In this document: one piece after another, positions 5,954 to 52,488 of the stretch
Numbering within the stretch: the first letter of the stretch is position 1
Layout: every line of letters starts with the position of its first letter
Assembly (NCBI RefSeq): GCF_001466665.1
Contig: NZ_KQ758903.1
Location: 1,733,684-1,797,683, forward strand
Reading direction: 5' to 3'
Length of the DNA stretch: 64,000 nucleotides
DNA from: Dehalogenimonas alkenigignens
GTDB taxonomy: Bacteria > Chloroflexota > Dehalococcoidia > Dehalococcoidales > Dehalococcoidaceae
Made by a program: the position numbers and the translations under genes
The notes under the pieces: model-generated
What the model was told of the DNA's origin: nothing
Database searches by the model: none
What the model saw: only the letters and a program-made list of their open reading frames with translations

Positions 5954-6793
5954 CTACCCGCAAACCGCTGGCATAGCCGAAGCTCCCACTGTATTAGTTG
6001 CGAAAACGGGCGAAAACCTTTCACCGGAAAACAGGCTTTTTTGTTCCCGTTTCCGAAAACGGCAAAGGTAAATCATTTCGGCATTGTCGAGGGCTAACCC
6101 GTCCCGCCGCTTTTCGGCGATGGCGATTAACCTGTCGGGGCATTGGAGAAGGAAGGTATTGGCATCCAGCCAGGCATCGAGGTCCAATGCCCTGTCATCG
6201 GCAATCAGATCGCCGAGTTCGGTGGTGTTGCCTTCGTCGTCCGTGACCGGCTTGTTGAGGCTTTCGAGCTTGACCGCTTTGGGGCAGGCCGAAAACAGCC
6301 AGTCCTCTTTACATTTCCGCCGTTGTGCCTTGCTACAATCCCCGCAGGTAAGGCCATTGTCCATCCGGTAACGCTTCCGCCAGTAGAGAGCTTGGGCGCG
6401 GCTGGCGATACGGTACATGGCCGCTTCGGTGAACGGATGGTGTCCGTTATTCCGTTCCACGTCGGCAAGGGTGAGAATGATGTCATGGAGAAGGTCATCA
6501 CGCTCGTCCGGCTTGGCCTTGTAGCTGAACTTCGAGGCGATGGTATAGAAGGTAAGCCAGTTGCCGGAAAGATGGTCATAGCCGTTGCCGAGTGGATCGG
6601 CTTGCTTTGGTTTTGAGCTTCGATTAGACTTGAAGCCACGCAAGGCGCTTGTCTTAGTGGTTTGACAGGTGGCGACCTTTCCGCACCATCGGCAAACGCC
6701 TTGCCTTTCTTTGAGTACCCAAACCTTGTGACACCGGCTACAGAAGCCCCCAGGCCGGTTCTGTTCCCCCAGTGCTGTTACGCTTGAACTCAC
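5954..6793 (-). CDS. Zinc-ribbon protein with sigma-factor-like region 2
   Basis: A 279-residue protein starting with GTG behind GGGGGAAAGC. The first 45 residues hold a zinc-ribbon (CSRC...CRWC). The middle resembles sigma-70 region 2: YKAKPDERDDLLHDIILTLA, then RIASRAQALYWRKRY, interrupted by a Cys-rich insertion (CGDCSKAQRRKC...C). Residues ~180-200 (ESLNKPVTDDEGNTTELGDL) match the sigma linker style in which LNKP...LGDLI precedes region 4. The C-terminal region 4 is weak. It may be an element-specific sigma factor or a DNA-binding regulator. It stands upstream of the clamp homologue, 171 nt away, a gap in which I see no gene. Confidence 0.6.
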   Translation of the reverse strand: MSSSVTALGEQNRPGGFCSRCHKVWVLKERQGVCRWCGKVATCQTTKTSALRGFKSNRSSKPKQADPLGNGYDHLSGNWLTFYTIASKFSYKAKPDERDDLLHDIILTLADVERNNGHHPFTEAAMYRIASRAQALYWRKRYRMDNGLTCGDCSKAQRRKCKEDWLFSACPKAVKLESLNKPVTDDEGNTTELGDLIADDRALDLDAWLDANTFLLQCPDRLIAIAEKRRDGLALDNAEMIYLCRFRKREQKSLFSGERFSPVFATNTVGASAMPAVCG

Positions 6794-6967
6794 GCTTTCC
6801 CCCTTTCGGGCAAGCGTTCAGGTCAAGGCTTTTCGTGTTCAGTTGTTAAAGTACGTTTGCGTGTTTTTCCAGCTTCATTGTCAAACAAAAAGTCATTTTG
6901 AACATCCTGAAGAACTAGCACGTTTATCACCCTCTCCCGGCCTCTTTGAAGGAGAACGAAGAAAAGA

Positions 6968-6989
6968 AGCCTCCCACTATGGGGAGGCT
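6968..6989 (-). terminator. Terminator of the nuclease operon
   Basis: An 8-bp perfect stem AGCCTCCC (6968-6975) / GGGAGGCT (6982-6989) with a 6-nt loop. On the minus strand a T-rich tract (TTCTTTTC) follows. It lies 43 nt past the stop of the gene ending at 7032. The remaining gap to 6794 shows no gene. Confidence 0.65.
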
Positions 6990-7031
6990 CTATCTGAGAA
7001 GAAGCCTGGGATTTACTTTTAGTCTCGTGTT

Positions 7032-7733
7032 TTAGTGATGGACTGGCAAGAAAACCTCGATAATTCGATCACTGAGAAAGTGCTTATCAGGTAATCCGAG
7101 TTTGGTTTTCATTATACTCAAATGGTCGCGCCACTCGCTGTCGATCAAAGGACCTTTTTGCTCAGAATCGCCGGTAAAATATAGAAATACCATCCAGACA
7201 GGAATATTCTGGCTAGTAAGCCAATAAAGATGCGCCAGGCGGTTGGCATATTGATAATATTTGCCCAGCCAGTCTGAATCGTCATTTACACCCAGAGCAT
7301 CTTTCACAACCTCGATACTTGCCGTAATCAAGCCCAGACTCTTTGGTTTCGCCCCGCAGGCACTTGAAGATGTGCCAACCTCCTTCACATGGCTTTTGGC
7401 TTCAACAAGGACGATACCGTGCCTACCTTTTTTCCCGGGTACTATCGCCAAGGCATCCCAGCACGGGCCAAGGCGCGGCCAGAAAGATGAAAGGTTTTCT
7501 TTAAGGTGTGATAATCCCACCTGGTTCAAGAACTCTGCGTCTCGATATTCTCGGAAGTTTTGACTCTCAAGCGGTGATTTCCAATCGAACACACCATCCG
7601 TAAAATTCTCGAGGGAATGGCTTTGCGCCATCAAATATTGACCGAAATTGATTTGGTATTCCCCATTGATAAGATCCTGGAGGTGTAACCGACTGCCTTT
7701 AACAGCTCTTCCAGTATGTTTTCCTGGCATCAT
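7032..7733 (-). CDS. Predicted PD-(D/E)XK nuclease
   Basis: A 233-residue protein. I use the ATG at 7733 because CGGAG lies just upstream and the longer GTG start overlaps the preceding gene by 55 nt. The motif WDALAIV followed ~18 residues later by VLVEAK (Asp93, Glu111, Lys113 in this numbering) is the PD-(D/E)XK active-site pattern. A second element, WLGKYYQYANRLAHLYWL, follows. The same D...ExK plus GxYYQY arrangement appears in the C-terminal domain of the upstream MBL protein, so the two are probably related and act together. Expected activity: metal-dependent cleavage of DNA or RNA. Confidence 0.65.
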   Translation of the reverse strand: MMPGKHTGRAVKGSRLHLQDLINGEYQINFGQYLMAQSHSLENFTDGVFDWKSPLESQNFREYRDAEFLNQVGLSHLKENLSSFWPRLGPCWDALAIVPGKKGRHGIVLVEAKSHVKEVGTSSSACGAKPKSLGLITASIEVVKDALGVNDDSDWLGKYYQYANRLAHLYWLTSQNIPVWMVFLYFTGDSEQKGPLIDSEWRDHLSIMKTKLGLPDKHFLSDRIIEVFLPVHH

Positions 7734-7744
7734 CTGGCTCCGAG

Positions 7745-9988
7745 TTATTTTCCTGATACCCTTCCGGTACCTTCTAAGGGCGTCGAACTCTGCTCCCACA
7801 TCGCGAGCCCTCCGAGTCTAATTCTGATTTGATCCCGAAAAGGCAATTCCATGGCCTTGGAGATCATTTTATCTTTCCAAATACTATTCGGATTGTAATC
7901 GACCAGATAGAGAATCATCTCGACCTTGCTGATATCCCGAGAAAGTTTCATTTTTTTTAACTGAGCCAGTTGCTCCTCTGACCGCTGAACAAGCCCGAGC
8001 GCAATTTTCTGTTTAAGAATGAGTTCCATCTCATCGCAGAGTGAATCGAGATTGGTTTTAATGTACTGATAGTACCTCCCCAATTGCTGATCAGCGTCTT
8101 GGATGTCATTATTGAGGGCATATTTCACTTCAATCAAAGCCAGTTGCCCAACGGGATTGTTCCCTCCCCGCTTCAAACGTGGCCATTTCAAAGCTAGCAA
8201 GTCCCATCTGTCCGAACCGACACCATATTGATTGGCGAGGATAATATATTCCGAGTTGTTGCGCGCCTCGAAATTGTTAGCTCGGATAATCATTTGCTCG
8301 TATTCAATTTCCATGCTGTTCTTGCCCCTGCTGGAAACCCGGTACATCAACTCAGGGACAACCGTCAGGTAAGCTTGAACGTCTTCAGGGCTGTTTAGGT
8401 ATTTGGGAATTGCCAAGCCTTTGGAGAAGGCTTCATGGATTTCCACCTTGTGGTTCGCTCGTAAACAAAGAATGCAGTTGCCCTTGTAATAGATGCCTAT
8501 CGCTTCATCAGCCGGAGCGACTTCTGGCTTGTGGGGACTATTAAGTTGTCCGCGGAGTTCGAAATGCAGGTCTTTATTGTTCCGCACTAACTCAATTAGC
8601 GGCCGGAACAACCCATCTTTCAGACAGAACTTCTCCAGAAATGCCGTCGAGAGAGCCCTGCATCTCGATTCGGTTAACACGTTTACAACACCAACATCCA
8701 TAATTTCGCCATCCTCCAATTCGGTAACATTTGCGAAAAGTTGGGCGTATTGTTCGGGATGAAACGTATGAACCGGCACAACATGTGCCGGCTTGAGCGC
8801 CTCAACCAAACTTTTCAAATGGCGCACGTAGGCATGACCGCTTGTATGCACCTCAATAAGATCGATTTCTTTAGCCGCCAGGAAGTTTCTCAAGTCTGTT
8901 TTCTCAAGATACCCATGCCACATGGAGTATAAGGCAATGGCTCTGGTTTGAGCATACAACTTAGCTGCGACGATCCGAAAAATCCGATTGTCTTTTACGA
9001 GGACGACTTTATTGTCAGGTTCAGCCTGGATTTCTTCAAACGTAATCCTAGATCGGGAGTATTTTCCGAGGAGCTGTTTATCTTGATCGGCCAACTTCTG
9101 GACATGGTAATGGCTGAAGAAGACACGAATCCCATCCCAATTGAACTGAGGGATGTTTGAGGAGATAGCTTGGAGCTTGTCGAGAACGAAGGCTGTGTAC
9201 AAGTCGATTACCAGAGTTCTTCCAGACCTCCGGGCTGCTCTAAAAAGAGATACTAACCTGTCCAGATTCTGGGAGGAAGTGAAGACATACGCAAGCCCTT
9301 GGTGCGTCTTGAACAGATCGGTAAGCGCATTTTCGACGGCGTTCTCGTCAGGAAACAACCCTTCATCGCGCCCTAACATCGACCCTTCCATGATCAGGGC
9401 ATCGACTTTTTTCGGAGGGCTTTTTAACAACCGGTCGAGCAAGACCATTTTTCGACCGTGACCCCTGAAATCCCCCGTGTAAAAAACGCGCTGATCGTCA
9501 GCTTCAATTGAAAAGGCAAACGCGTCAGGTGCGGAATGGTCCATGAGATAAGGCGTGACAGTGAATTCTCCAATAGCAACTGGTTCCCAAGGTTTCATTG
9601 ATCTGATGTTTTGGGAACTAACGCAAGTGTCGAGGAAGGCGTTGGATACCTCAGCTAAGGCCTGTGTTCCCCGGCTCATAAAAAGTGGTATTCGGGGGTT
9701 CACGAGCCGAAGGAATCCGTAATGATCAAGATGGGCATGCGAGATCAGGATGCCATCAGGCACCGGTCCAGTATCGTCATATAAGCCACTCACCGCCGGC
9801 AAAACGCGTTTGGAAATGAGGTCGGATAAGGCAGAGTCCCGATAGTTGTCCCATTCGAATGGCGATTGGTCTCTGTTGACCAGAGGCATGCCAACGTCCA
9901 GAATGATACGTGTCTTCCCAGAGCTGGAAGTCAATTCGATACATGTCCCGCCGATCTCATGGGTACCTCGATGAATTATTAGTTGCAT
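7745..9988 (-). CDS. Beta-CASP metallo-beta-lactamase fused to a PD-(D/E)XK domain
   Basis: A 747-residue two-domain protein. Residues 1-440 form an RNase J-like MBL/beta-CASP fold: HAHLDH at 84-89, TGDFRGHG at 171-178, an SGHA block at 383-386 and PVHTFH at 405-410. These supply the zinc ligands expected of a nuclease acting on RNA or DNA. Residues ~555-690 contain WDLLALKW (Asp596) and LALIEVK (Glu620, Lys622), a PD-(D/E)XK nuclease pattern. It is the middle gene of an operon: a zinc-ribbon gene 36 nt upstream and a stand-alone PD-(D/E)XK gene 11 nt downstream. The combination of two nuclease folds in one chain is unusual; a role in defence or RNA surveillance is inference. Confidence 0.75.
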   Translation of the reverse strand: MQLIIHRGTHEIGGTCIELTSSSGKTRIILDVGMPLVNRDQSPFEWDNYRDSALSDLISKRVLPAVSGLYDDTGPVPDGILISHAHLDHYGFLRLVNPRIPLFMSRGTQALAEVSNAFLDTCVSSQNIRSMKPWEPVAIGEFTVTPYLMDHSAPDAFAFSIEADDQRVFYTGDFRGHGRKMVLLDRLLKSPPKKVDALIMEGSMLGRDEGLFPDENAVENALTDLFKTHQGLAYVFTSSQNLDRLVSLFRAARRSGRTLVIDLYTAFVLDKLQAISSNIPQFNWDGIRVFFSHYHVQKLADQDKQLLGKYSRSRITFEEIQAEPDNKVVLVKDNRIFRIVAAKLYAQTRAIALYSMWHGYLEKTDLRNFLAAKEIDLIEVHTSGHAYVRHLKSLVEALKPAHVVPVHTFHPEQYAQLFANVTELEDGEIMDVGVVNVLTESRCRALSTAFLEKFCLKDGLFRPLIELVRNNKDLHFELRGQLNSPHKPEVAPADEAIGIYYKGNCILCLRANHKVEIHEAFSKGLAIPKYLNSPEDVQAYLTVVPELMYRVSSRGKNSMEIEYEQMIIRANNFEARNNSEYIILANQYGVGSDRWDLLALKWPRLKRGGNNPVGQLALIEVKYALNNDIQDADQQLGRYYQYIKTNLDSLCDEMELILKQKIALGLVQRSEEQLAQLKKMKLSRDISKVEMILYLVDYNPNSIWKDKMISKAMELPFRDQIRIRLGGLAMWEQSSTPLEGTGRVSGK

Positions 9989-10024
9989 GTTTGTCGATCA
10001 CCCTTTATCGTAACGGCGACAAGT

Positions 10025-10345
10025 CTATTTTGTCCCCCTTGTTGGTCGCTTTGGCATTCTGTGCTTAACATAGAAAGTCTGGAGATCGGGGCAGTCATCA
10101 TCATCCCGCATCGTTATAAATCCACCAAATCTGATCCGGCGCCAACATTTTTTTCCATCGATGAAAACTGGGTTGTCGCCTTCTTCTGACAAGGAATCAA
10201 ATTCGGCAGGCATCCCGAGGCCGTTAAGAGCTCGTTGGTCGCACTGGCGGCATACGATTCCAGGGTATTGGCTAGCTAAGCGAGGATTTGGAATTGTCTG
10301 CCCGCAAATGCTGCAAGAAGTTTCCATTGTACTCTTCTCTCCCAT
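10025..10345 (-). CDS. Small zinc-ribbon protein
   Basis: A ~106-residue protein with two Cys pairs, CSICGQTIP and CRQCDQRA, at the N terminus, followed by a mixed charged region (CWRRIRFGGFITMRDDDDCP). The start is uncertain: the ATG at 10345 follows GGTGGAG closely, another ATG lies at 10327, and the open frame runs up to 10408. Function unknown; zinc ribbons of this type often bind nucleic acid or other proteins. It is the first gene of the operon with the MBL-nuclease fusion. Upstream, 10409-10596 holds no recognisable feature. Confidence 0.6.
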   Translation of the reverse strand: MGEKSTMETSCSICGQTIPNPRLASQYPGIVCRQCDQRALNGLGMPAEFDSLSEEGDNPVFIDGKKCWRRIRFGGFITMRDDDDCPDLQTFYVKHRMPKRPTRGTK

Positions 10346-10596
10346 AATCTCCACCCCTTCAGGGCGGCATAATGATACCCCATCACCTGAAGCCTGACTA
10401 GTAGACATCTGGACACTCGTTTCTATCGAGGAAAACGTGGTATTGATCCGTAAAGCTCCTAATGGTCGGATGACTAATCAGATTTGATTTTTGACGGCAA
10501 GTTCAGTAATGGGTTACACCACGAGCGAGGGCCGCCGCTTGGATTTCCCGAAACTGATTCCTAGCCACAGAATCGTATGCCTGATAAGAATAAGGA

Positions 10597-11361
10597 TCAA
10601 ATGATACAGGGTTGTTTGGGAACGTAGATATAACCATTTTCGGTGGAACCGTAACATTGATATGGAACAAGGCGAGAAAACAAAGCTGCGATGTATAAAC
10701 AAATTATCGAATCTAACACGTCTTCATTTGTTTTTAGTGCCTGTCCGGCAAGTGACCAAATATAATGGTCGTCAAGATACTTTTGATACTCATCGCAAAT
10801 TGAAAGGGAAACAACATTTGATCGGCCAAGGGCCTTTATATAGTTCGCGAGCATCACTTGCCCGTGTCTCTTAACTTCGACCTGACCTTTTTTGTAGGTC
10901 AATCGTTCCGGCAATTTGAAGATCTCGATTATTGCAGGATGAGGGTAACATTCAATTTGAAACCTGAAGTTTCCCGCGTTGCGAAGATGTTTATAGCCTT
11001 TGGCTTCCAAGAAAAGTGATAGCTTGACCCCCGCTGGTTCAGGGTAATTTCCCAAATTTGAAGCATGACACGAAGCACCACGTGCTCCATAGTCGACACT
11101 TACTAATCTCTCACACTCACGTTGCCCCGAATAGTTGTTTATGACAAGCGGCGCATCTATTGCAACGCCATGGAGTTTGTTCTCGAAGAGAAGCAAGGAA
11201 CTCAATCGGTCGAATCCTATTACTGCGGGGATTATTTTAGTGACGGTGAGCTGGCTTCCTGATAACTCCCCTAATGAAACCGCCGAAGGATTCTTTTCAT
11301 TTTTCCATGCAAGGTCGACGCCGGCTAATATCATTTCAACTTTGTCTTTCTCGTTGCCCAT
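10597..11361 (-). CDS. DUF429 family, RNase H-like predicted nuclease
   Basis: A 254-residue protein with the DUF429 signature: AGVDLAW at the N terminus, GVAIDAPL near residue 65, YGARGASCHASNLG, ECYPHPAIIEIF, and EDVLDSIICLYIAALFSR near the C terminus, ending with GYIYVP. The three spaced Asp residues (VDLAW, IDAPL, VLDS) match an RNase H-like catalytic core. The family is uncharacterised; a nuclease role is predicted from the fold. It lies 20 nt after the DUF6236-like gene, so the two probably form a cargo operon with codon use A+T-richer than the neighbours to the right. Confidence 0.75.
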   Translation of the reverse strand: MGNEKDKVEMILAGVDLAWKNEKNPSAVSLGELSGSQLTVTKIIPAVIGFDRLSSLLLFENKLHGVAIDAPLVINNYSGQRECERLVSVDYGARGASCHASNLGNYPEPAGVKLSLFLEAKGYKHLRNAGNFRFQIECYPHPAIIEIFKLPERLTYKKGQVEVKRHGQVMLANYIKALGRSNVVSLSICDEYQKYLDDHYIWSLAGQALKTNEDVLDSIICLYIAALFSRLVPYQCYGSTENGYIYVPKQPCII

Positions 11362-11381
11362 ATTTTATGTGAATCGCATGC

Positions 11382-12404
11382 TTAAGTGTCACGCTTGGTT
11401 TGGGCGGTAGTCTTTGAGAAATGGCGGTGTAGTAATGCGCCATAGGCAAGAGGACGATTGAGCAACGAGTTTCTATCACGTCTTCGTCCCAGATAAGAAA
11501 CGATTGCGGCAGGTAGTGAAAGGGAACCAAGTCCACTCGATATTGTGTGATCTCCTTGAAGTACATTCACGAACGAATCGCTCGCGCCGAGAATTGGCAA
11601 TATATCTAAGAAGACAACCTCGCCCCATGACTCCCGCAGTCGGCTTGAAATATCGTCAATCTCTTCCCTCAATTCTTGTGTTATTGCTTGGCTCCTTTGT
11701 TCCCGTAAGTCACTTTCAGCGATAACAGACAGATCAACGCAAAGCCCTTCGATTTTATTCCTGAAGCGGTCAAGTTGAGCACCGTGTTTTTGCTTGAACT
11801 TGATGATGCTTGGGATGTCGATATCGCCCATCGGAAAAGGAAATAAATCTTCGAGAATTACCCTTCTATGTGAATCTAGTCGGGCGTACTGTTTATATCC
11901 ACCGGCGCCAAGTACCTGAAAGCAGGATTCCTCATTTGTGATTGGAACGCTGTTAACTTCAGGTAAACTACCGAGCACACACGCTAGATAAGACATAAAA
12001 GCATTAGCTACCCAGGAATCCATCTCATACCATGGGTAGTTGGCCGGAGAAGCAACCCCCAGTTCGACAAGGTTTTGGGCAATATGGCCGAGTTTTTCGA
12101 CATGAATAGGAGTTCTCACCGGAGAATGATGCCGTTGAGTTTTTCTGGTCCGAATTCGCTTCTCAACAAAACCTAAAAACGGTTGACCGAAATCCTCAAT
12201 GTCTCCAATTAACTCTGCGGGAATAATTGGATTTATCAATCCCTCTTCAACGAGTTGATACATATGCGGGGGAAGCCGATTTCGGGAATGTAGAGATTCA
12301 TACGGAGAGATAGAACTCAATTGGTCCCAATAAAGCAACATTAGGTACAACCAACGGCCTTGTGGAGGGCTGATATAGGGAAAATAAAGTGCCTTGGATC
12401 TCAT
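11382..12404 (-). CDS. DUF6236-like protein of unknown function
   Basis: A ~340-residue soluble protein. The ATG at 12404 is preferred because GGGGGA lies 6 nt upstream; an earlier in-frame start exists at 12443. The N terminus (KALYFPYISPPQGRWLYLML) and the following LYWDQLSSISPYE match what I remember of the DUF6236 family, in which a short strand precedes a Trp-rich helix. The C-terminal half is helical, with a hydrophobic glycine-rich end (GLGSLSLPAAIVSYL). No catalytic motif is evident. It is cotranscribed with the DUF429 gene. Confidence 0.55.
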   Translation of the reverse strand: MRSKALYFPYISPPQGRWLYLMLLYWDQLSSISPYESLHSRNRLPPHMYQLVEEGLINPIIPAELIGDIEDFGQPFLGFVEKRIRTRKTQRHHSPVRTPIHVEKLGHIAQNLVELGVASPANYPWYEMDSWVANAFMSYLACVLGSLPEVNSVPITNEESCFQVLGAGGYKQYARLDSHRRVILEDLFPFPMGDIDIPSIIKFKQKHGAQLDRFRNKIEGLCVDLSVIAESDLREQRSQAITQELREEIDDISSRLRESWGEVVFLDILPILGASDSFVNVLQGDHTISSGLGSLSLPAAIVSYLGRRRDRNSLLNRPLAYGALLHRHFSKTTAQTKRDT

Positions 12405-12521
12405 TTTGATTCCCCCATTCCCCAGAACCAATTTCGCCGTCATTGTATCATAGCTTTAATCGTTTCAAACGTTCTCAAAGCACAACAAGGTGTTGAGGGT
12501 TCAGCGAGCTGATAAAGAAGT

Positions 12522-13052
12522 TTACTTTTTGATGTGACTCGGCCCGATCTCTGGGTATAAGGTGAACAGCGGGTTTGCCCATGCCTGATCTGAGACAATC
12601 CGGCCTTTAGTTGTTAATCGATAGTAAACTCGTCTAGGAGCATCAGAGTAATGTTCTTGAATTGAGGAAGCCTCAGTCCGCTCAGTGGTTTCAACCCACC
12701 CCAACCTCTTCAATACCCCGAAGTACATTAGAAAGGAGTGGTAGCGCATGTGGGTGAACTTCCGCGATACCTTCCTCAATTGCTTTTGATAGATCTCCTC
12801 GGCGAGTTCCTCGGTGACATCAACGCCGCGAACCACCTGTTTGCTGATGATCCGTTCCGCCCGCTCCCTGGCCGTCGCCCTGGCTAGCGCTTCCTTGTAT
12901 TCGTAGTTGATATCCGCTTGCGGTGCGCCTTTTTCCGGATCAATCCTTGGCGAACCCTCTGGCCCGTTCCCCAGGAGGTATTCCCGGATAAACCAACCAC
13001 AGCCGAACGGCCGGAGGAAGCCGCCCCGACTCGGTCTCAGTTCCATTTCCAT
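12522..13052 (-). CDS. Possible winged-helix protein, unknown
   Basis: A 176-residue protein, 9 nt after the ArdC-like gene and probably the last gene of the long structural operon. The middle is charged and helical (EALARATARERAERI). Residues 105-150 (FGVLKRLGWVETTERTE...RVYYRLTTKGRIVSD) have the look of a winged helix with a wing and recognition helix, so DNA binding is possible. No close family recognised. The 78-nt gap to the DUF6236-like stop region shows no clear terminator. Confidence 0.55.
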   Translation of the reverse strand: MEMELRPSRGGFLRPFGCGWFIREYLLGNGPEGSPRIDPEKGAPQADINYEYKEALARATARERAERIISKQVVRGVDVTEELAEEIYQKQLRKVSRKFTHMRYHSFLMYFGVLKRLGWVETTERTEASSIQEHYSDAPRRVYYRLTTKGRIVSDQAWANPLFTLYPEIGPSHIKK

Positions 13053-13061
13053 GGAGATGCT

Positions 13062-14537
13062 CTAAGCCACCCCTGCCGGCTTTTTGGCCAGGGATTCGAG
13101 GCCTTCGATGATTCTGGTAGTCACCTGGCAGATTGAGGCCAGATTTCGCTCAAGGACTTTCCTGTCCTGCGCCCAGAGAGCGACGTAGGGGAAGGATCTG
13201 GTCCCGGTATCGAACCCGAAGTGGGCACCGACGGCGAAGGCAACGCTTTCGGCGATGGTTTCGGCATCCCGTCTCGGGATGTGGAACACTCCCTCCGAAT
13301 AGTAGTGGGCTACCTCGTGGATCAGCGTCTTCAGTTGCTGGGCTCGTGATTCCTCAGGCCTGACCCAGATTTCCTTGCCGGAGAAGAAGCCCTTGATGGC
13401 CGGATCCTGGTACGGCTTAGAGTCAAACCCGACATGCACGCCTTCACTGCGGACGAGGTGCGTGATGTCGCCGAAAAGCTCCTCATTGGCTTCGCCGGTG
13501 AGCACAGGAACCTCAAATTCGGGCAGCGGCTTGCCCTCGGTCTGACTGAGATCGAAGACGTAGACGACCTTGAAGTAGATCGTCCGCAGAAATTCCTGTT
13601 TCTCCTCTTCCTCGTCGTCTTTCTTGCCTTCGTGTTCATCAACCGGTTCGGCTTTCAAAGACGACTTCGGTGGCAGGCACGGCGCGAGGATGGCAATGCC
13701 CTTCTCGCCCTTCTTCACCCAGCGGCCGAGGTCCTTCCAAGTGTTGAAGCCGGCCACCCTGGTGGCGCTCGGATTCTGGGAGGCGATGAGAATGAGGTTG
13801 CCGATAGAATAGTCGTGGAATTTCGACATGGTGAGCAGGAAGTTCCGGAAATGGCTGCTGGACTGGATGGTATCGACGCCGTCCTTGAGCTTTTTCAAGA
13901 CCTCATCGATGCAGCGCTCTTTAGCCTCGGGCTCGATGGAAAAGCTGTAATCCGGCACCGGAGCACCGACCCAGCTCATCAGGTCGTAGCTTCGCGGAGT
14001 GATGATCTCGCATTTTGTTGATGGCGCCCCGGCTGCCGTCGGCAATTTTGATCCTGAAGAGCCGATGATGGAATCGGAGAAATAGCGGGACAAGCCAATC
14101 AAGAATACCCCGGCCGCCAGGGAACCGCCGAGCAATGCAATAGTGCTTGGCCAATCCGGCGCGGCCGGGGGCGATTCCTGAAGCGAAAGCCAGTTCACTG
14201 AAGCCTCGTCGCCAACCTCGATTTCCGCCAGCTCGCCGGCATTCAGCTCGATGAAGTAACGAACTCGCGAAGTCGAACTGACCAGGTAGCCAGGCGAGAC
14301 ATCACGATAGATCTCTGTTATGGTGAAGTCCTCGGAGAGAAAGACGATGTCCAGCGGGAACAGCATCGGCACGGTCGTCACTTCAATAGCCCGGGAAGAC
14401 CCAAGGTCAAAAAACATTCCGGTCCCGGCCGCAAGCCCGGGTAACCCGCCCAGTCCCTGGGTTAGTTCCCAAGGGGTGGCCGCCACGGCGGCGATCCACT
14501 CCCTGTCTTTGATGGTTATCTTCACCTGGCCGCTCAC
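13062..14537 (-). CDS. DUF192 - membrane segment - ArdC-like antirestriction/metallopeptidase fusion
   Basis: A 491-residue protein with three parts. Residues ~1-115 resemble DUF192 (GMFFDLGSSRAIEVTTVPM, then LDIVFLSEDFTITEI). Residues ~130-152 form a hydrophobic membrane segment. Residues ~205-300 match the ArdC N-terminal ssDNA-binding domain (FRNFLLTMSKFHDYSIGN, VAGFNTWKDLGRWVKKGEKG), and HEVAH at 407-411 with a downstream AETIAESVAF (third ligand Glu) is a zincin active site. ArdC proteins protect incoming DNA from restriction. The GTG start overlaps the stop of the upstream gene (GTGA). Fusion to DUF192 through a membrane segment is unusual and suggests membrane-bound action. Confidence 0.8.
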   Translation of the reverse strand: MSGQVKITIKDREWIAAVAATPWELTQGLGGLPGLAAGTGMFFDLGSSRAIEVTTVPMLFPLDIVFLSEDFTITEIYRDVSPGYLVSSTSRVRYFIELNAGELAEIEVGDEASVNWLSLQESPPAAPDWPSTIALLGGSLAAGVFLIGLSRYFSDSIIGSSGSKLPTAAGAPSTKCEIITPRSYDLMSWVGAPVPDYSFSIEPEAKERCIDEVLKKLKDGVDTIQSSSHFRNFLLTMSKFHDYSIGNLILIASQNPSATRVAGFNTWKDLGRWVKKGEKGIAILAPCLPPKSSLKAEPVDEHEGKKDDEEEEKQEFLRTIYFKVVYVFDLSQTEGKPLPEFEVPVLTGEANEELFGDITHLVRSEGVHVGFDSKPYQDPAIKGFFSGKEIWVRPEESRAQQLKTLIHEVAHYYSEGVFHIPRRDAETIAESVAFAVGAHFGFDTGTRSFPYVALWAQDRKVLERNLASICQVTTRIIEGLESLAKKPAGVA

Positions 14538-30793: not shown

Positions 30794-31777
30794 CTAGGAG
30801 GCGGCGTCGCGGTCGACGGCTTTTAGGAAGCGGCTGAGGGCCTCGGCAGAAAATTTCGCCGGCGGTAGCGGCCAGTTGAAGTCCCGTATCTCGACGTCGA
30901 TGTTGCAATGCTTGCTAAACCACTGCCTGAGCTGGTGTTCCCGAATGTCGAGCTGCCACACTTTGCTCTTGGCTTTGTCCCAGAGCCTGATGAGGTCGCG
31001 CTCGGTAACGCCGTCTTCGAGCCTGACATTCTCTTTATTGATGTTAATTGCCTCTTCGGGGAAAAGGTCGTCCGGCGCCGCACTGTCGGGCGGCGGCAGG
31101 AGCAGCACCTCGCTCGGAGGCAACTGGGCGAGCTTCTGGATCTCGGCCAGAGTAGAATGCGAGGTCAGCAGCAACACCCGAACCGTTTTCTTCCTGCCCT
31201 CGACGTCGACCTCTTTCTCGATGAGCCTTAAAGAAAGAGGAATCATCGACAACCGGCCGCAGGCGCTCTTTATGAGGTCAAGACTGTTATTCACGTTAAG
31301 GATGGAATGGTACGAGCCGGTGTCGAGCTGGTAGACGCCGATGCCCGGGCAGTCGGGGATGAGGAACTGGAGGTTCATCACCCGCTTGCAGCGACCGGTC
31401 TCGTAGTGGTGGCATGACTTCGGGCTGCAGGCTATTTCCCTAAGCTCGGTCTCGGCATCCTCATGGGTGGCGATTTGGCCGGTTTTGATGTTCACCCTGG
31501 CCACCGCCGTCTCGCCATCGCCGCGGCAGATGAGGCCGCGGTAGGCCGAATAGCACCTGAGGTACTGGCTCGCCCATTGGTTCGAGTTTTCGGTCGGCAG
31601 CATGACCGAAAGCTCGGTCGGACACTGCCCAAAGACCTTCTTCACCTCATCCGGGCAGACGAAGTAATCGGTCGGGACCGGGTACGAGAACCCTTCGCTA
31701 GACTCCTTCGTCAGTCCCAGCCTGATTTTGCCCAGCCTCGGCAACCTGATGACTCCGGTGATTCCCTTGATCGGCAT
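30794..31777 (-). CDS. Recombination directionality factor-like protein (phiC31 Gp3-like family)
   Basis: A 327-residue soluble protein. The pattern PTDYFVC, PTELSVMLP, WASQYLRCYSAYRGLICRGD, then a Cys cluster (CSPKSCHHYETGRCK) and VMNLQFLIPDCPGIGVYQLD matches what I know of the family annotated as recombination directionality factor, which includes the phiC31-type Gp3 proteins. These bind large serine integrases and switch them to excision. A large serine recombinase lies 1.8 kb away, across the repressor switch, which fits. The Cys residues probably bind zinc. Confidence 0.65.
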   Translation of the reverse strand: MPIKGITGVIRLPRLGKIRLGLTKESSEGFSYPVPTDYFVCPDEVKKVFGQCPTELSVMLPTENSNQWASQYLRCYSAYRGLICRGDGETAVARVNIKTGQIATHEDAETELREIACSPKSCHHYETGRCKRVMNLQFLIPDCPGIGVYQLDTGSYHSILNVNNSLDLIKSACGRLSMIPLSLRLIEKEVDVEGRKKTVRVLLLTSHSTLAEIQKLAQLPPSEVLLLPPPDSAAPDDLFPEEAININKENVRLEDGVTERDLIRLWDKAKSKVWQLDIREHQLRQWFSKHCNIDVEIRDFNWPLPPAKFSAEALSRFLKAVDRDAAS

Positions 31778-31901
31778 TTCCTTCCTCCTCGATCTTACTT
31801 TCCCTGGAATTCGCGTTGTCCATCTGATAAAGCCGGGCGATCATGCGAGCCAGAATCCGCAGACCGCTGTCCATCACTTTCTCCTCTGCCTCGCTAACCA
31901 T
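31698..31901 (-). CDS. Small helical protein overlapping the RDF-like gene
   Basis: A possible 67-residue protein starting at ATG 31901 with GAGG 9 nt upstream, overlapping the repressor gene stop by 8 nt and the RDF-like gene by 80 nt. The first 27 residues (SEAEEKVMDSGLRILARMIA) form a convincing amphipathic helix; the rest may be only the out-of-frame reading of the neighbour. Moderate support. Confidence 0.4.
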   Translation of the reverse strand: MVSEAEEKVMDSGLRILARMIARLYQMDNANSRESKIEEEGNADQGNHRSHQVAEAGQNQAGTDEGV

Positions 31902-32121
31902 CACCGTTTTCCTCGATGGTGAACAAGTCGTCGAATGAATAACTTTTGAAATAGTCGAGGAGTGTCTGACGCACGGCGGCTGTGGGAGCCTGCTTGCCGT
32001 TCAGGATGCGGCAGAGGTAACTCGGCGTGATCCCGATCTTCTTGGCCAGGAGCTTGCGCGAAAGGTTGTGTCGGAGCATTGCCTTTTCGAGGTTGTCTCT
32101 GTTCAATAACACCTTGAACAT
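31894..32121 (-). CDS. Xre-family repressor
   Basis: A 75-residue protein that is almost entirely a helix-turn-helix (LEKAMLRHNLSRKLLAKKIG, ITPSYLCRILNGKQAP). AGGAG precedes the ATG by 6 nt. It is divergent from a second Xre gene across a 160-bp promoter region with repeated operator-like sequences, the standard architecture of a lysogeny-type switch. Its operon leads into the RDF and replication genes, so it probably controls excision and replication. Confidence 0.8.
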   Translation of the reverse strand: MFKVLLNRDNLEKAMLRHNLSRKLLAKKIGITPSYLCRILNGKQAPTAAVRQTLLDYFKSYSFDDLFTIEENGDG

Positions 32122-32142
32122 GTGCTACTCCTGAAATTAGAA

Positions 32143-32180
32143 GTGAGCACAATAGTAAAACATATAACTGGTCTGGTCAA
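32143..32180 (-). promoter_or_regulatory. Leftward promoter with overlapping operator
   Basis: On the minus strand TTGACC (32180-32175) and TACTAT (32157-32152) are spaced 17 nt. The -10 overlaps GTGAGCACAATAG (from 32143), which resembles the TCACAATCAT sites found at 32191-32200 and, inverted, at 32259-32268. Drives the small Xre repressor, RDF-like and replication genes. Confidence 0.75.
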
Positions 32181-32190
32181 GGGCGTTATG

Positions 32191-32268
32191 TCACAATCAT
32201 CTCAAATTAGATGCAAATAATTGTCGGAAACATGTTGCAACTGTTACCGGAATGTGCTATGATTGTGA
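32191..32268 (+). promoter_or_regulatory. Rightward promoter with inverted operator sites
   Basis: TTGCAA (32235-32240) and TATGAT (32258-32263) are spaced 17 nt. TCACAATCAT at 32191-32200 recurs in exact inverted form at 32259-32268, covering the -10. The start codon at 32282 leaves only a ~12-nt leader containing GGAGG. Drives the second Xre gene, the ImmA-like gene and the serine recombinase. Confidence 0.75.
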
Positions 32269-32281
32269 ACATGGAGGGCTT

Positions 32282-32683
32282 ATGCCGGATTTCGCCGCGT
32301 ATATCAGGCAGCTTCGCCAGAAGCAACGTCTGTCCCTAAGAGATGTCGCTCAGAAGACCGGGATCTCGTATTCTTATTTAGCCCAAATCGAGCACGGCCG
32401 GAGGAACCCTCCCGGTCCGGATTTCATGAAGCGCCTGGCGCCGGTCTACCAGGTGACGCTCCGGGACCTTCTAAGAGCGGCTGGTTACCTGGAAGAGAGC
32501 ACGAGCTCGACCCTTAGCGATGAGCAGGAGGTGGAGATGGCCTTCAACTACGTCATGAACGATCCGCGCTACCAGTCCGGCACCCGGATGAGCGGTGAAC
32601 TGACGACGGACGTGAAACGCTTCATCGTCGAGATGTACGAAAAGGCCACGGGAAAGAAGTTGCTGCCAGAGTCCCATTCGTGA
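32282..32683 (+). CDS. Xre-family regulator
   Basis: A 133-residue protein from the ATG at 32282 (GGAGG 5 nt upstream). The N-terminal HTH is typical: QRLSLRDVAQKTGISYSYLA then QIEHGRRNPPGPDFM. The C-terminal part (EMAFNYVMNDPRYQSGTRMS, VKRFIVEMYEKATGKKL) is likely for dimerisation or sensing. It overlaps the ImmA-like gene by 4 nt (GTGA), so the pair is coexpressed; in such pairs the peptidase usually acts on the repressor. Confidence 0.85.
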   Translation: MPDFAAYIRQLRQKQRLSLRDVAQKTGISYSYLAQIEHGRRNPPGPDFMKRLAPVYQVTLRDLLRAAGYLEESTSSTLSDEQEVEMAFNYVMNDPRYQSGTRMSGELTTDVKRFIVEMYEKATGKKLLPESHS

Positions 32684-33612
32684 AAATCTCAAACGATCTA
32701 CGGGGCTTCTGTGAGCACCTGGTGAGAAAGTTCGGTAGCCCTGGAGCTACCTCCGAAGAGCAAAAGGCCGAGGAGTTCAGGAGGGTTTATCTTAGGAACT
32801 TGCCTTTGAATCTGAAATCGATCAGGGCGATCGCTTCATGCTGCGGCGCGGAGCTCAGGGGATTAGAAAAAATGCCCCGGAATGTCCGGGGGTATCACGA
32901 AATCTGCGATGGGCGACTCAATATTTACTACCGGAAAGATGATACGGTCAGCGGTATCCAGAATACTATCCTTCATGAGTTGAGGGAGATGATGGAAACC
33001 CTCTTTTCCACCATTGAACCCGGTTATGAGCCTCTAAGGACTAGCGCCCGCCATCTCGCCGCCAACCGCTTTGCCACCGCGGTTTTACTGCCCGAGGAGA
33101 AATTCAAGGCCGATGTTTTCAGTTCCGGATTTGATGTGTACGGTCTTTCTCAGACGTATTCGAAAAGTGCATCTCAGGTACTTCTCCGCATGGGGGAAGT
33201 ACTTCAAAGCCGCCTTTTCTTCTACGGCGCGTTGTTCGAGCCGGACGACCCCGAAGGCCAGGAATGGGCTGTCACATATTGGACCGGTAGCAGCAACGAG
33301 GATGCTGAAGCGAATGTCTTTGGCCTGGACGGTTTGTTTCCCAAGCGAGGCAGGCGGGCTCTTCCGGGTTCGCTCATTGATCTGACAATTAAATCGGGAA
33401 AAGCCCACCTAGTGCGCCGGATCACGCTAGGCGGCCCGGAAGATTTCGATGATGGCGAACTTGTGGCGCTTGCTGTTCCCATCGTGGGCGAGGCGACAGG
33501 AATTGAAAAGGTAGCGCTGGTGGTGCTTCTGTCCCGTGATGTCCGACTACTTGAGCCCCAAATCGAACGTATCAATCCGGAAATCATCGAGTCTTTCCAT
33601 AGACATCTTTAG
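32680..33612 (+). CDS. ImmA/IrrE-like protein with altered zinc motif
   Basis: A 310-residue protein. The peptidase signature is recognisable but changed: the expected HExxH reads HELRE (ILHELREMMETLF), while the downstream AANRFATAVLLPEEKF corresponds to the usual ANxFAxxLLMP block. A C-terminal ~120-residue domain (LIDLTIKSGKAHLVRRITLG) may sense a ligand. In integrative elements ImmA cleaves the ImmR repressor to start excision. Loss of the second His could mean a non-catalytic sensor or an altered metal site. It lies 12 nt before the serine recombinase gene. Confidence 0.7.
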   Translation: MKISNDLRGFCEHLVRKFGSPGATSEEQKAEEFRRVYLRNLPLNLKSIRAIASCCGAELRGLEKMPRNVRGYHEICDGRLNIYYRKDDTVSGIQNTILHELREMMETLFSTIEPGYEPLRTSARHLAANRFATAVLLPEEKFKADVFSSGFDVYGLSQTYSKSASQVLLRMGEVLQSRLFFYGALFEPDDPEGQEWAVTYWTGSSNEDAEANVFGLDGLFPKRGRRALPGSLIDLTIKSGKAHLVRRITLGGPEDFDDGELVALAVPIVGEATGIEKVALVVLLSRDVRLLEPQIERINPEIIESFHRHL

Positions 33613-33624
33613 GGGGAAAGGGCA

Positions 33625-35229
33625 ATGGAAACCGACGGAAAAAGAGCCGTAATCTATGCGAGGGTGTCATCAGATAAACAGGATGTCGACCTTTCTATCT
33701 CAGCCCAGCTGAGAGCCCTCAAGGAATTCGCGACCAGAAACCGACTTCAGATCGTACAAGAATTCATCGATGAAGCCGAAACAGGCCGGACAACCGCCCG
33801 GCCGGCTTTTCGCGAAATGGTGGCTTCGGCTCGCCGGTCGCCGAAGCCGTTTGATGTCATTTTGGTCTGGAAATACTCCCGATTCGCCCGTAGCCGTGAG
33901 GACTCGATCGTTTACAAGGCTGTTCTCCGGAAAAACGGAGTCCAGGTGGTTTCAATCAATGAACCCTTCGACGACACGCCCACTGGCCGATTACTTGAAG
34001 CCATCATAGAAAGCCTGGATGAGTTTTACTCCGACAATCTCGGTGAAGAAGTGACTCGCGGTTTGAAGGAGAGCGCTTCGCGTGGCTTTTATGTCTCACA
34101 CAAAGCTCCGTACGGGTACCGCAAGATCAAGGTGAAAGATGGCGCGAAAGAACGCACCAAGCTCGACATAGAACCGGGCGAAGGCAAAACGGTTGCGTCT
34201 CTCTTTGACAAGGTGATTCACGGCCAGGGATTAACCGAAATTGCCAAGGAATTGAACTCCAAATCGATCTCTTCGCCTACAGGCAAGACCTGGGGCAAGA
34301 CGAGCGTCCGGGCTATCCTGGCTAACGAGGTTTATACGGGAATCCTTGTCTGGGGCCGAGACAACAGACGCGGATTCGATCCGATCAGAGTAGAGGGAGC
34401 AGTCCCGCCGATCGTTTCGCATGACACTTTTACCAAAGTCCAACACCTGCTGAGAGAAAGAGCACCTGGCCGAACTCATCCGAAACGGGTCATCAGCAAA
34501 TTCCTGTTAAGCGGCCTGGTCCGGTGCGGCCACTGCGGTAAAGCCCTTGTCGGAGCCGATGCCAAAGGCGGCAAATTCACCTACTACGCTTGCGGGACGA
34601 TCATCAAGAAAGGCGCGGGCTCCTGCCGCGGCGGCTATCTCAATAGCTCGAAATTTGAAAGCCAGGTCATCCGCAAGATCAAGGAAAACATCCTGACCAC
34701 CAGCAACCTCTACAAACTGGTCGAGATGGTAAACAATGAGATGGATTCGACATCTCACAACTATCAGGACGACTTTAATGTAGTTTCGGCGGAAATCCTC
34801 GACACGAACCGTCGGCTGGAAAATCTCTATGATGCCGTTGAGAGCGGCAAAATCGACTTAAGCGACCTATCGCCAAGAATCCGCGATCTGAGACTTCGAC
34901 TTGAGAATCTCAAAGACAGGAAATTGCAACTTGAAGGTCTTTTAGCAGAAAGACGCATCGAACTCGCGGACAAGAAGATCATCGATGCCTACGTAAACGA
35001 CTTACGGCTGGAACTGGATAGCGGCGCTTTAATGGAAAGGAAGGCCTTCATTAAGACGTTTGTGAATGAGATAGAAGTTACCGGCAAAAAGGCTGTTTTA
35101 AGATACACCATACCCTTGACGCCGAAGGCCTTGAAAGAGGAGACGATAGGAGTTCTGTCTACCGAACACTATGGTGGGCGGCCGTGGACTCGAACCACGG
35201 ACTTCCTGCGTGTGAAGCAGGCGTTCTAA
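33625..35229 (+). CDS. Large serine recombinase (integrase)
   Basis: A 534-residue recombinase with a resolvase catalytic domain (VIYARVSSDKQ, catalytic Ser15; RFARSREDSIVYKAVL), a recombinase domain, a zinc ribbon (RCGHCGKAL ... CGTIIKKGAGSC, residues ~295-335) and a coiled coil, the standard architecture of integrases of phages and integrative elements. It inserts and, with an RDF, excises DNA at attachment sites. The last ~19 codons and the stop lie inside the tRNA-Val gene (GGRPWTRTTDFLRVKQAF is tRNA sequence read as protein), so the coding end is created by integration. RBS GGGGGAAAGG before the ATG. Confidence 0.92.
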   Translation: METDGKRAVIYARVSSDKQDVDLSISAQLRALKEFATRNRLQIVQEFIDEAETGRTTARPAFREMVASARRSPKPFDVILVWKYSRFARSREDSIVYKAVLRKNGVQVVSINEPFDDTPTGRLLEAIIESLDEFYSDNLGEEVTRGLKESASRGFYVSHKAPYGYRKIKVKDGAKERTKLDIEPGEGKTVASLFDKVIHGQGLTEIAKELNSKSISSPTGKTWGKTSVRAILANEVYTGILVWGRDNRRGFDPIRVEGAVPPIVSHDTFTKVQHLLRERAPGRTHPKRVISKFLLSGLVRCGHCGKALVGADAKGGKFTYYACGTIIKKGAGSCRGGYLNSSKFESQVIRKIKENILTTSNLYKLVEMVNNEMDSTSHNYQDDFNVVSAEILDTNRRLENLYDAVESGKIDLSDLSPRIRDLRLRLENLKDRKLQLEGLLAERRIELADKKIIDAYVNDLRLELDSGALMERKAFIKTFVNEIEVTGKKAVLRYTIPLTPKALKEETIGVLSTEHYGGRPWTRTTDFLRVKQAF

Positions 35230-35247
35230 CCACTGAACTAGCCGCCC
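35172..35247 (-). tRNA. tRNA-Val (anticodon CAC), integration target
   Basis: Acceptor GGGCGGC/GCCGCCC, anticodon stem CCTGC/GCAGG with loop TTCACAC (anticodon CAC), and T-loop GGTTCGAGTCC are readable; CCA is encoded (35174-35172). The 3' end faces the element, and the serine recombinase reading frame enters it, so the attachment core is expected in the 3' half of this gene. Confidence 0.93.
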
Positions 35248-50706: not shown

Positions 50707-52488
50707 CTAAACCGTCACCAGCACCGGCAGCACCATCGGCCGCCGCCGCGTCCGGTCGTAATAGAACTTGGACAGCAGGTCGCGCACCCGGTTGCTGATG
50801 ACCGTCGAGTCCGAGATCCGCTGTTTTTCTTCCTCGAACAGCCGGGTGACGATGTCCCGGCTCTCTTCCATCAGCGCCCGGCCGGCTTCGGGATCAACGA
50901 AGCCGCGTGAGACGATATCCGGCCGCACCGCCAGGTGTCCGGTCGAAGCGTCCAGGGTGACGATGGCCACCACGATGCCGTCCTGGGACAGCATCTTGCG
51001 GTTGCGCAGGACGACGCCGTTGATATCGCCCACCGACACGCCGTCGACATAGACGTTGGAGGCCGGGACGTGGCCGGTCACCTTGCCGCCGCCCGGCGCC
51101 AGTTCAAGAATATCACCGTCTTCCAGGATGAAAACGTTTTCTTCCGGCACCCCCATATCCCGCGCCAGCTGGGCGTGGAGCTTTAAATGGCGGTACTCGC
51201 CGTGGACCGGCACGAAGTATTGCGGCCGGATGAGGCTTTGCAGCAACCGCAGTTCCTCCTGGGAAGCGTGGCCGTGGACATGGACCTTGGCTATCCGGTC
51301 ATAAAAAACCTGGGCCCCCTGCCGGAACAGGCTGTCGATTGTCTTCGAAACCACCGACTCGTTGCCGGGTATGGGCGAGGCGGAGATGATGACCGTATCG
51401 CCCTGCTTGATCTGCACCTCGCGGTGCTCCCGGTTGGCGATGCGGACCAGCGCCGAGGTCGGTTCGCCCTGGGAGCCGGTGGTAATGAGCGCCACCCGGT
51501 TGGCCGGGAAGCGGTGCATCTCGGACAGCTCGCCGAGGAGGCCGTCCGCCGCCCTGAGATAACCCATCTTGAGCGCCATTTTGACGATCTCGTTCATGCC
51601 GCGGCCGGCGATGAAGACCTTGCGGTTGAACCGGGCGGCGGCGTCCATGACCTGCTGGATGCGCGCCACCAGCGAGGCGAAGGTGGTGACGATCACCCGG
51701 CCCGGCGCGGCGGACATGATATTGGAGATGGTCTCGCCGACCACCTTCTCCGACGGGGTGTAGCCGGCCAGTTCAACGTGGGTGGAATCTGCCATCAGGA
51801 GCAGCACGCCCTCAGCCCCAACCTGCGCCAGCCGCGACAGGTCAGACGGGCGGCAGTCTACCGGGGTATAGTCCAGCTTGAAATCGCCGGAATGGACGAT
51901 GGTGCCCACCGGGGTGCGGATGATCAGCCCGGCGGCGTCGGGGATGGAATGGCACATGGCCACGAACTCGATGTTGAACTGCCCCAACTGGAAGCTGCCG
52001 CCGGGGCGGACCTCATGAATCCTGGCGTTGTGCACCCTGGATTCTTTGAGTTTGACCGAAATCAGGCCGTGAGGCAGCGGGGCACAGTAAATGGGCACGT
52101 CGAGCTGGGGCAGGACATAGGCCAGGGCGCCGATATGGTCTTCATGGCCGTGGGTGATGATGATGCCGCGGACTTTATCCTTGTGCTCCACCAGGTAGGT
52201 GACATCCGGGATGACCAGGTCGATGCCCGGCATATCTTCTTCTGGGAACATCAGGCCGCAGTCGATGACGATGATGTCGTCGGCGTATTCGACGACCATC
52301 ATGTTCTTGCCGATCTCCCCCAGGCCGCCAAGCGGAATGATCCTGATCTTGGAGCCCGGCCCGCGGCGGGGCGGCGGGGCGGCTTGCGGGGCGCGGCACT
52401 GGGCGCTAGAAACCGAAGAGTTTGAGCTGGCTGTGGGCTTCCGCCGGCGCCGGCTCGGTCTGGGCGGCTGGGGCTGCTGGTCGTTCAC
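50707..52488 (-). CDS. rnj: Ribonuclease J
   Basis: A 593-residue RNase J with MBL motif THGHEDHIGALAYVL, IHSGDFKLDYTPVD, the beta-CASP motif LITTGSQGEPTSALVRI and HVHGHASQEELRLL, and the C-terminal domain. It degrades and matures RNA 5' to 3'. The GTG start and the first ~27 codons overlap the upstream uracil-DNA glycosylase gene by 83 nt; the N-terminal 45 residues are Pro/Arg/Ser-rich and not conserved, so the true start may be further downstream at a non-ATG codon. Confidence 0.93.
   Translation of the reverse strand: MNDQQPQPPRPSRRRRKPTASSNSSVSSAQCRAPQAAPPPRRGPGSKIRIIPLGGLGEIGKNMMVVEYADDIIVIDCGLMFPEEDMPGIDLVIPDVTYLVEHKDKVRGIIITHGHEDHIGALAYVLPQLDVPIYCAPLPHGLISVKLKESRVHNARIHEVRPGGSFQLGQFNIEFVAMCHSIPDAAGLIIRTPVGTIVHSGDFKLDYTPVDCRPSDLSRLAQVGAEGVLLLMADSTHVELAGYTPSEKVVGETISNIMSAAPGRVIVTTFASLVARIQQVMDAAARFNRKVFIAGRGMNEIVKMALKMGYLRAADGLLGELSEMHRFPANRVALITTGSQGEPTSALVRIANREHREVQIKQGDTVIISASPIPGNESVVSKTIDSLFRQGAQVFYDRIAKVHVHGHASQEELRLLQSLIRPQYFVPVHGEYRHLKLHAQLARDMGVPEENVFILEDGDILELAPGGGKVTGHVPASNVYVDGVSVGDINGVVLRNRKMLSQDGIVVAIVTLDASTGHLAVRPDIVSRGFVDPEAGRALMEESRDIVTRLFEEEKQRISDSTVISNRVRDLLSKFYYDRTRRRPMVLPVLVTV

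Follow-up and report, generated by a model that had tools for sequence, protein, structure and literature searches.

Beta-CASP nucleases are textbook RNA-processing enzymes. One of them, Cas14 of type VII CRISPR-Cas, is a beta-CASP RNase effector in mobile-element defence (PMC10910872), and a His rather than a Val at motif C distinguishes the RNA-acting type of beta-CASP MBL (PMC3095777). MBL-superfamily nucleases are also found in defence loci paired with another enzyme, as in the trypsin-MBL nuclease pairs (HamM and its relatives), in which the MBLs are protease-activated, ComEC-type DNases (PMC12799240). Among PD-(D/E)XK nucleases, HamA of Hachiman, SduA of Shedu and Card1/Can2 have in common a fold, a D...ExK core and a QxxxY helix motif; Hachiman brings a helicase and Card1/Can2 a CARF domain.

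The locus described here shares features with all of these systems. The window, the 64,000-nt stretch of DNA that was analysed, lies in the 1.85-Mb single-contig chromosome of Dehalogenimonas alkenigignens and encodes a 747-aa protein in which a beta-CASP MBL is joined to a PD-(D/E)XK domain, a fusion proposed in an earlier note and now confirmed by motifs, alignments and structure matches. Both folds and their active sites are present, the two nucleases occur obligately together, their distribution is patchy and mobile, and the gene lies in a cargo slot. We consider it rather probable that the protein represents an uncatalogued mobile two-nuclease conflict module, made of a beta-CASP MBL of the RNA-cutting type and a PD-(D/E)XK protein that carries an N-terminal domain of its own. 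The relevant features of the operon are as follows.

10345 (or 10327) to 10025, minus strand: gene for the zinc-ribbon protein, co-directional with the fusion gene
9988-7745, minus strand: gene for the 747-aa fusion (beta-CASP MBL, R479/Y500/G503 domain, PD-(D/E)XK domain)
8693-9988, minus strand: EF2904/RNase J-type beta-CASP MBL domain (residues 1-432 of the fusion)
Residues about 433-552 of the fusion, minus strand: N-terminal domain of the partner with R479, Y500 and G503, recognised by column conservation
7784-8332, minus strand: PD-(D/E)XK domain (residues about 553-735), recognised by invariance, strand/helix order and structure matches
8201-8203, 8129-8131 and 8123-8125, minus strand: PD-(D/E)XK catalytic codons for D596, E620 and K622, respectively
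7733 (or 7730) to 7032, minus strand: gene for a second PD-(D/E)XK-like protein (PD2) of about 233 aa, with D93, E111 and K113
6990-6967, minus strand: terminator-like hairpin 3' of the last gene (PD2), a consensus match only

The MBL half contains the full set of motifs expected of a beta-CASP MBL, including HxHxDH (residues 84-89), the motif 3 His, the motif 4 Asp and motifs A (E201), B (H385) and C (H407). In alignments of 11 and 6 sequences, H84, H86, D88, H89, H151, D173, E201, H385 and H407 were invariant among relatives, and the zinc and beta-CASP residues listed in the earlier note all proved real. The top sequence match was EF2904 (PDB 2az4; 7e-16, profile 1e-34), and an AlphaFold model of residues 1-432 (pLDDT mostly 75-95) was matched by Foldseek best to 2az4 (E 4.5e-25, TMt 0.78) and then to RNase J (about 1e-22), in agreement with an RNase J-like MBL and beta-CASP fold. 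The match to the RNase J model TIGR00649 (7.6e-23, 80.7 bits) lies below the curated cut-off of 400, which places the protein outside RNase J proper. H407 is the His that marks the RNA-acting branch, and from this residue the MBL half is predicted to cut RNA. While EF2904 and RNase J are thus the closest matches in sequence, structure and motifs, the window MBL belongs to its own mobile, patchy clade that is obligately paired with a PD-(D/E)XK protein, unlike EF2904-type relatives, which are found in transporter or housekeeping operons. The likeness to Cas14 is that of a beta-CASP RNase in defence; the match itself is weak (0.0016; 16.8 bits versus a cut-off of 800), and the ten neighbouring genes scanned encode no Cas protein, whereas a type VII CRISPR-Cas locus would be expected to include Cas5/Cas7.

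The second half of the fusion was recognised as a PD-(D/E)XK nuclease by its D...(E/D)xK site, core topology and structure matches. When 12 sequences of the C-terminal domain were aligned, only E560, D596, E620 and K622 were strictly invariant, three of them being the residues that had been named beforehand, and Q635 and Y639 of a Q635xxxY639 motif were nearly so. Among 13 diverse partner sequences, with identities down to 14%, the only positions kept in at least 12 rows were R479, Y500, G503, E560, D596, E620 and K622. A predicted model of the C-terminal domain, of moderate confidence (mean pLDDT 65), has the order alpha-beta-beta-beta-alpha-beta. A search of the domain sequence against the PDB and a comparison of the part with Pfam and PADLOC gave no match, and Foldseek alone yielded no match to the model below 0.001; PD-(D/E)XK matches surfaced only in VIA-align, where nearly all top structural matches were PD-(D/E)XK enzymes (Z of 8.7 for HamA, 8.2 for EndoMS, 6.6 for Card1 and 6.3 for SduA, with Can2 and FokI also matched). 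The window protein therefore resembles HamA, SduA and Card1/Can2 in fold, D...ExK core and QxxxY helix motif, but it has no PADLOC match, carries a unique N-terminal R/Y/G domain and an MBL partner, and is accompanied by neither a helicase, as in Hachiman, nor a CARF domain, as in Card1/Can2. Similarly, it recalls the trypsin-MBL pairs in joining an MBL-superfamily nuclease to another enzyme, but the MBL is of the beta-CASP type, the partner is a nuclease, and the operon lacks a protease.

The suggestion that such a system had not been described agrees with what we found: PADLOC 2.0 matched the fusion, PD2 and the zinc-ribbon protein to 0 families, the MBL and PD-(D/E)XK pair is not covered by any Pfam, NCBIfam or PADLOC model, and no description of it was found in the open papers searched, a set that leaves most subscription papers and bioRxiv outside its scope. 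The parts of the module belong to known superfamilies, and their combination was not found in the libraries searched.

All three genes lie on the minus strand in the order zinc ribbon, fusion, PD2, with intergenic gaps of 36 and 11 nt, as noted earlier. The fusion, PD2 and zinc-ribbon genes are maintained, as shown by a dN/dS relative to genome G001 of 0.04-0.14; the values for the MBL and C-terminal halves of the fusion (0.04-0.11) indicate purifying selection on both. Of the proposed terminator, the hairpin at 6990-6967 is present (9 pairs and a T-rich tail), but terminator-like sites in the whole region are not in excess relative to shuffled sequence. The proposal of the earlier note that the three genes form one system did not hold. 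The zinc-ribbon protein (CxxC...CxxC and GDNPVFIDGxKCWRR) has relatives in haloarchaeal plasmids without an MBL. For PD2, 3 of 400 phylum genomes and one Azospirillum plasmid have a copy with no annotated MBL in the vicinity. The pair formed by the window and G001 is the only place where either was seen alongside the MBL, and nearly every other MBL locus lacks them. A three-gene unit was therefore rejected. PD2 was correctly described as having the motif layout of the fused domain, with D93, E111, K113 and YQ kept in G001 and in the 33%-identical Azospirillum homologue, but these motifs do not establish it as a close relative of that domain (profile match probability 16%), leaving a close paralogy unsupported. 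The zinc-ribbon protein and PD2 are independent variable cargo rather than core components; they may help, without defining the system. A further gene pair adjoins the operon and is kept with it in G001: one gene for a DUF429 protein (PADLOC candidate PDC-S44, 2e-67) and one DUF6236-like gene, separated by 20 nt, at 10597-12443 on the minus strand. A DUF429-like gene is also found near the PD2 homologue in Azospirillum (L063).

The conserved unit is the MBL with its PD-(D/E)XK partner, fused here and usually encoded by adjacent genes elsewhere. MBL relatives were found in 6 of 400 phylum genomes, in 14 of 393 class genomes (13 without one outgroup-like match), in 9 plasmid records and in 6 viral-collection contigs, and nearly all adjoin a PD-(D/E)XK-type gene. 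The partner family is present in 10 of the 393 class genomes, all 10 among the 13 MBL carriers (hypergeometric 1.3e-17, or 1.5e-14 at the genus level, with phylogeny ignored), and in 7 of 72,556 plasmid records, every one of which bears the MBL (7/7; two of these, from Rhizobium, are near-identical). The partner is fused to the MBL in three genomes, namely the window genome, G001 and G734 (which appears to be the same genome as L014 and was counted once). It lies directly downstream of the MBL in G158, G741, G604, G546 and G664, the last copy being interrupted by a TAG. It is also downstream in Rhizobium phaseoli and, with one small ORF between, in Ochrobactrum. In Cupriavidus, two Sphingomonas, Cereibacter and two prophage contigs the order is reversed, with the partner immediately upstream. 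The partner profile was matched at 6e-26 and 1e-29 by two prophage loci that were not part of its training set, with a 4-nt overlap with the MBL gene. In the closest relatives (G741, G604, G546 and G158), the C-terminal half of the fusion is a separate gene directly downstream of the MBL, and in the tree the fused forms group with unfused G741 inside the downstream-partner group. As the tree nests them among downstream-partner loci, the fusion seems to have arisen when two adjacent genes were joined. Distances among the MBLs are correlated with those among their partners (Mantel r 0.65, p 5e-5).

Partner type is also exchanged between clades. At seven loci (G007, G204, G104, G508, v41, v93 and v95), the MBL neighbours a different PD-(D/E)XK-like protein; for those of G204, G007 and G104 the alignment to the catalytic segment exceeds controls, and those of G508, v41, v93 and v95 are recognised by motif only. 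Profile comparison gave no confirmation for v41, v93, v95, G508 and others, whose divergent partners are counted as motif-level. A far Butyrivibrio relative has a PD-(D/E)XK neighbour by motif together with a WYL regulator, and the MBL copies of Rhizobium leguminosarum and Prevotella have no recognisable partner at the locus. A genome-contig search with a single protein returned only one partial locus, and viral scans with PD2 and with the C-terminal alignment returned no relatives. Some MBL loci (G546, G158, L014 and Sphingomonas) contain additional PD-(D/E)XK-like genes from other families, so a variable third gene is possible.

Such tight pairing, with overlapping genes and a location on plasmids and islands, would also suit a toxin-antitoxin or addiction module in which one nuclease is a toxin checked by its partner, serving maintenance of the element. 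We regard this as unlikely: both partners have full catalytic residues, three genomes encode them as a single chain, neither is of small size or typical of antitoxins, and the type of partner is swapped among clades.

The pattern of occurrence is more readily explained by a mobile conflict module. The module is patchy, being present in 2-4% of genomes, and is found on plasmids, prophage contigs and islands. Copies on prophage contigs lie next to a terminase gene, in a tail-gene (tape-measure) region and near integrases, other copies lie beside serine recombinases, and in Cereibacter one copy lies between TniB/TniQ transposition genes. Neighbours elsewhere include type IIG R-M, HEC-01, HEC-06/Orf5 and Hhe/PDC-S37-like genes (a Hhe-like helicase), and WYL regulators adjoin four loci. 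This distribution and these neighbourhoods are the pattern of mobile conflict genes; neither of the refuting conditions of the earlier note, single-copy housekeeping orthologues or unconserved PD-(D/E)XK residues, was found, as this is an accessory gene on mobile elements in which D596, E620 and K622 are invariant. Separately, a 124-158-aa protein (GIFWxV...HxxxW...PRGRI...) adjoins the MBL in four alphaproteobacterial plasmid loci (L042, L016, L017 and L044).

The host locus follows this pattern, as an integrated element occupies the first approximately 35 kb of the window, with the following landmarks.

5954-6793, minus strand: backbone gene that borders the cargo slot and recurs in congeners
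6794-12521: cargo slot, between the backbone genes at 5954-6793 and 12522-13052, with contents that vary in sister elements
12522-14537, minus strand: backbone genes flanking the cargo slot, encoding a 176-aa protein and a DUF192-ArdC antirestriction protein
30794-35229: mobility end of the element, with a Gp3-like recombination directionality factor (30794-31777) and a large serine recombinase (33625-35229)
35172-35247: tRNA-Val, abutted by the large serine recombinase at the right end of the element

The element also encodes DNA polymerase III beta-like, AAA, DUF3854 (primase-like) and SNF2 proteins, and relatives of its backbone genes are present in several copies in the host genome and in other genomes of the genus. 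The antirestriction protein, in which DUF192 is fused to an ArdC-N domain (13062-14537, minus strand), occurs in most element copies of the genus. A 30-nt, near-identical repeat (97%) is found at 35151-35180, overlapping the 3' end of tRNA-Val, and at genome positions 237541-237570, the distant copy being a possible second attachment site. The cargo slot of sister elements is occupied by a SIR2 protein, by an LmuB-like ATPase together with SoFic, by a 1358-aa HEAT-like protein or by an NDT-like pair, and in others it holds metabolic genes or long reductive-dehalogenase modules. The SIR2, LmuB-like and SoFic genes among these are of known defence kinds. The mobile setting among other cargo that had been suggested for the operon is thus borne out, as it occupies a slot of a serine-recombinase element whose contents differ in sisters. 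Across loci L079-L090, this one Dehalogenimonas slot (6794-12521 in the window) carries defence-type genes or reductive-dehalogenase/corrinoid modules. In G003 (L080 2408-6484), the 1358-aa HEAT-repeat-like protein stands alone in the slot and has no PADLOC match. The cargo of G007 (L081 2285-4134) consists of two genes, one for a 410-aa protein and one for a product of 206 aa that weakly resembles NDT (nucleoside deoxyribosyltransferase) retron effectors, and is possibly another undescribed defence pair.

The other replication genes of the element (DNA polymerase III beta, primase-like DUF3854 and helicase) could point to self-serving nucleic-acid processing, such as transcript maturation, replication or transfer, rather than conflict. 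We give this reading little weight, because the module is variable-slot cargo that sister elements sharing the backbone lack, and is found also on unrelated plasmids and prophages and, in Cereibacter, between TniB/TniQ genes. An accessory role in host RNA metabolism, with a duplicated RNase J beside a nuclease by chance, is very improbable: although the MBL is RNase J-like (TIGR00649) and the host has its own RNase J gene at 50707-52488, patchy presence, statistically obligate PD-(D/E)XK pairing and mobile contexts largely refute it, housekeeping operons being found only for the more distant EF2904-like proteins, and a housekeeping RNase J identity was rejected on the same grounds of patchiness and pairing.

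Returning to the mobile two-nuclease conflict module, its likely role, judged from sequence, is a candidate anti-phage or anti-plasmid function. Because the pair recurs in unrelated bacteria, on their plasmids, prophages and islands, it probably serves as an uncatalogued weapon against phages or competing mobile DNA; location alone is no proof of defence, because the same slot holds metabolic and reductive-dehalogenase genes. We infer that the MBL and PD-(D/E)XK nucleases would work together in a single complex. The PD-(D/E)XK protein, whose R/Y/G domain is a candidate sensor, would recognise and cut invading or modified nucleic acid, probably DNA, and the MBL would degrade RNA, probably the transcripts of the invader or, on activation, the cell's own RNA, with the outcome that phages or competing mobile elements would be blocked. 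At slightly less than even odds, in our estimate, the pair may represent an undescribed mobile immunity family that crosses phyla, its beta-CASP RNase and PD-(D/E)XK DNase functioning as a single enzyme to destroy the RNA as well as the DNA of the invader, with a nuclease half that is replaceable by other PD-(D/E)XK types and is sometimes fused.

If this is true, a set of nucleases now annotated as 'hypothetical protein' would gain a proposed function, and the gene pair, being self-contained, can be cloned and tested. Our findings suggest that, in the Dehalogenimonas islands that spread organohalide-respiration genes, defence-type genes are carried in the very same cargo slot. More broadly, a mobile beta-CASP/PD-(D/E)XK pair would constitute a second route of beta-CASP nucleases into genetic conflict, besides the type VII CRISPR effector.
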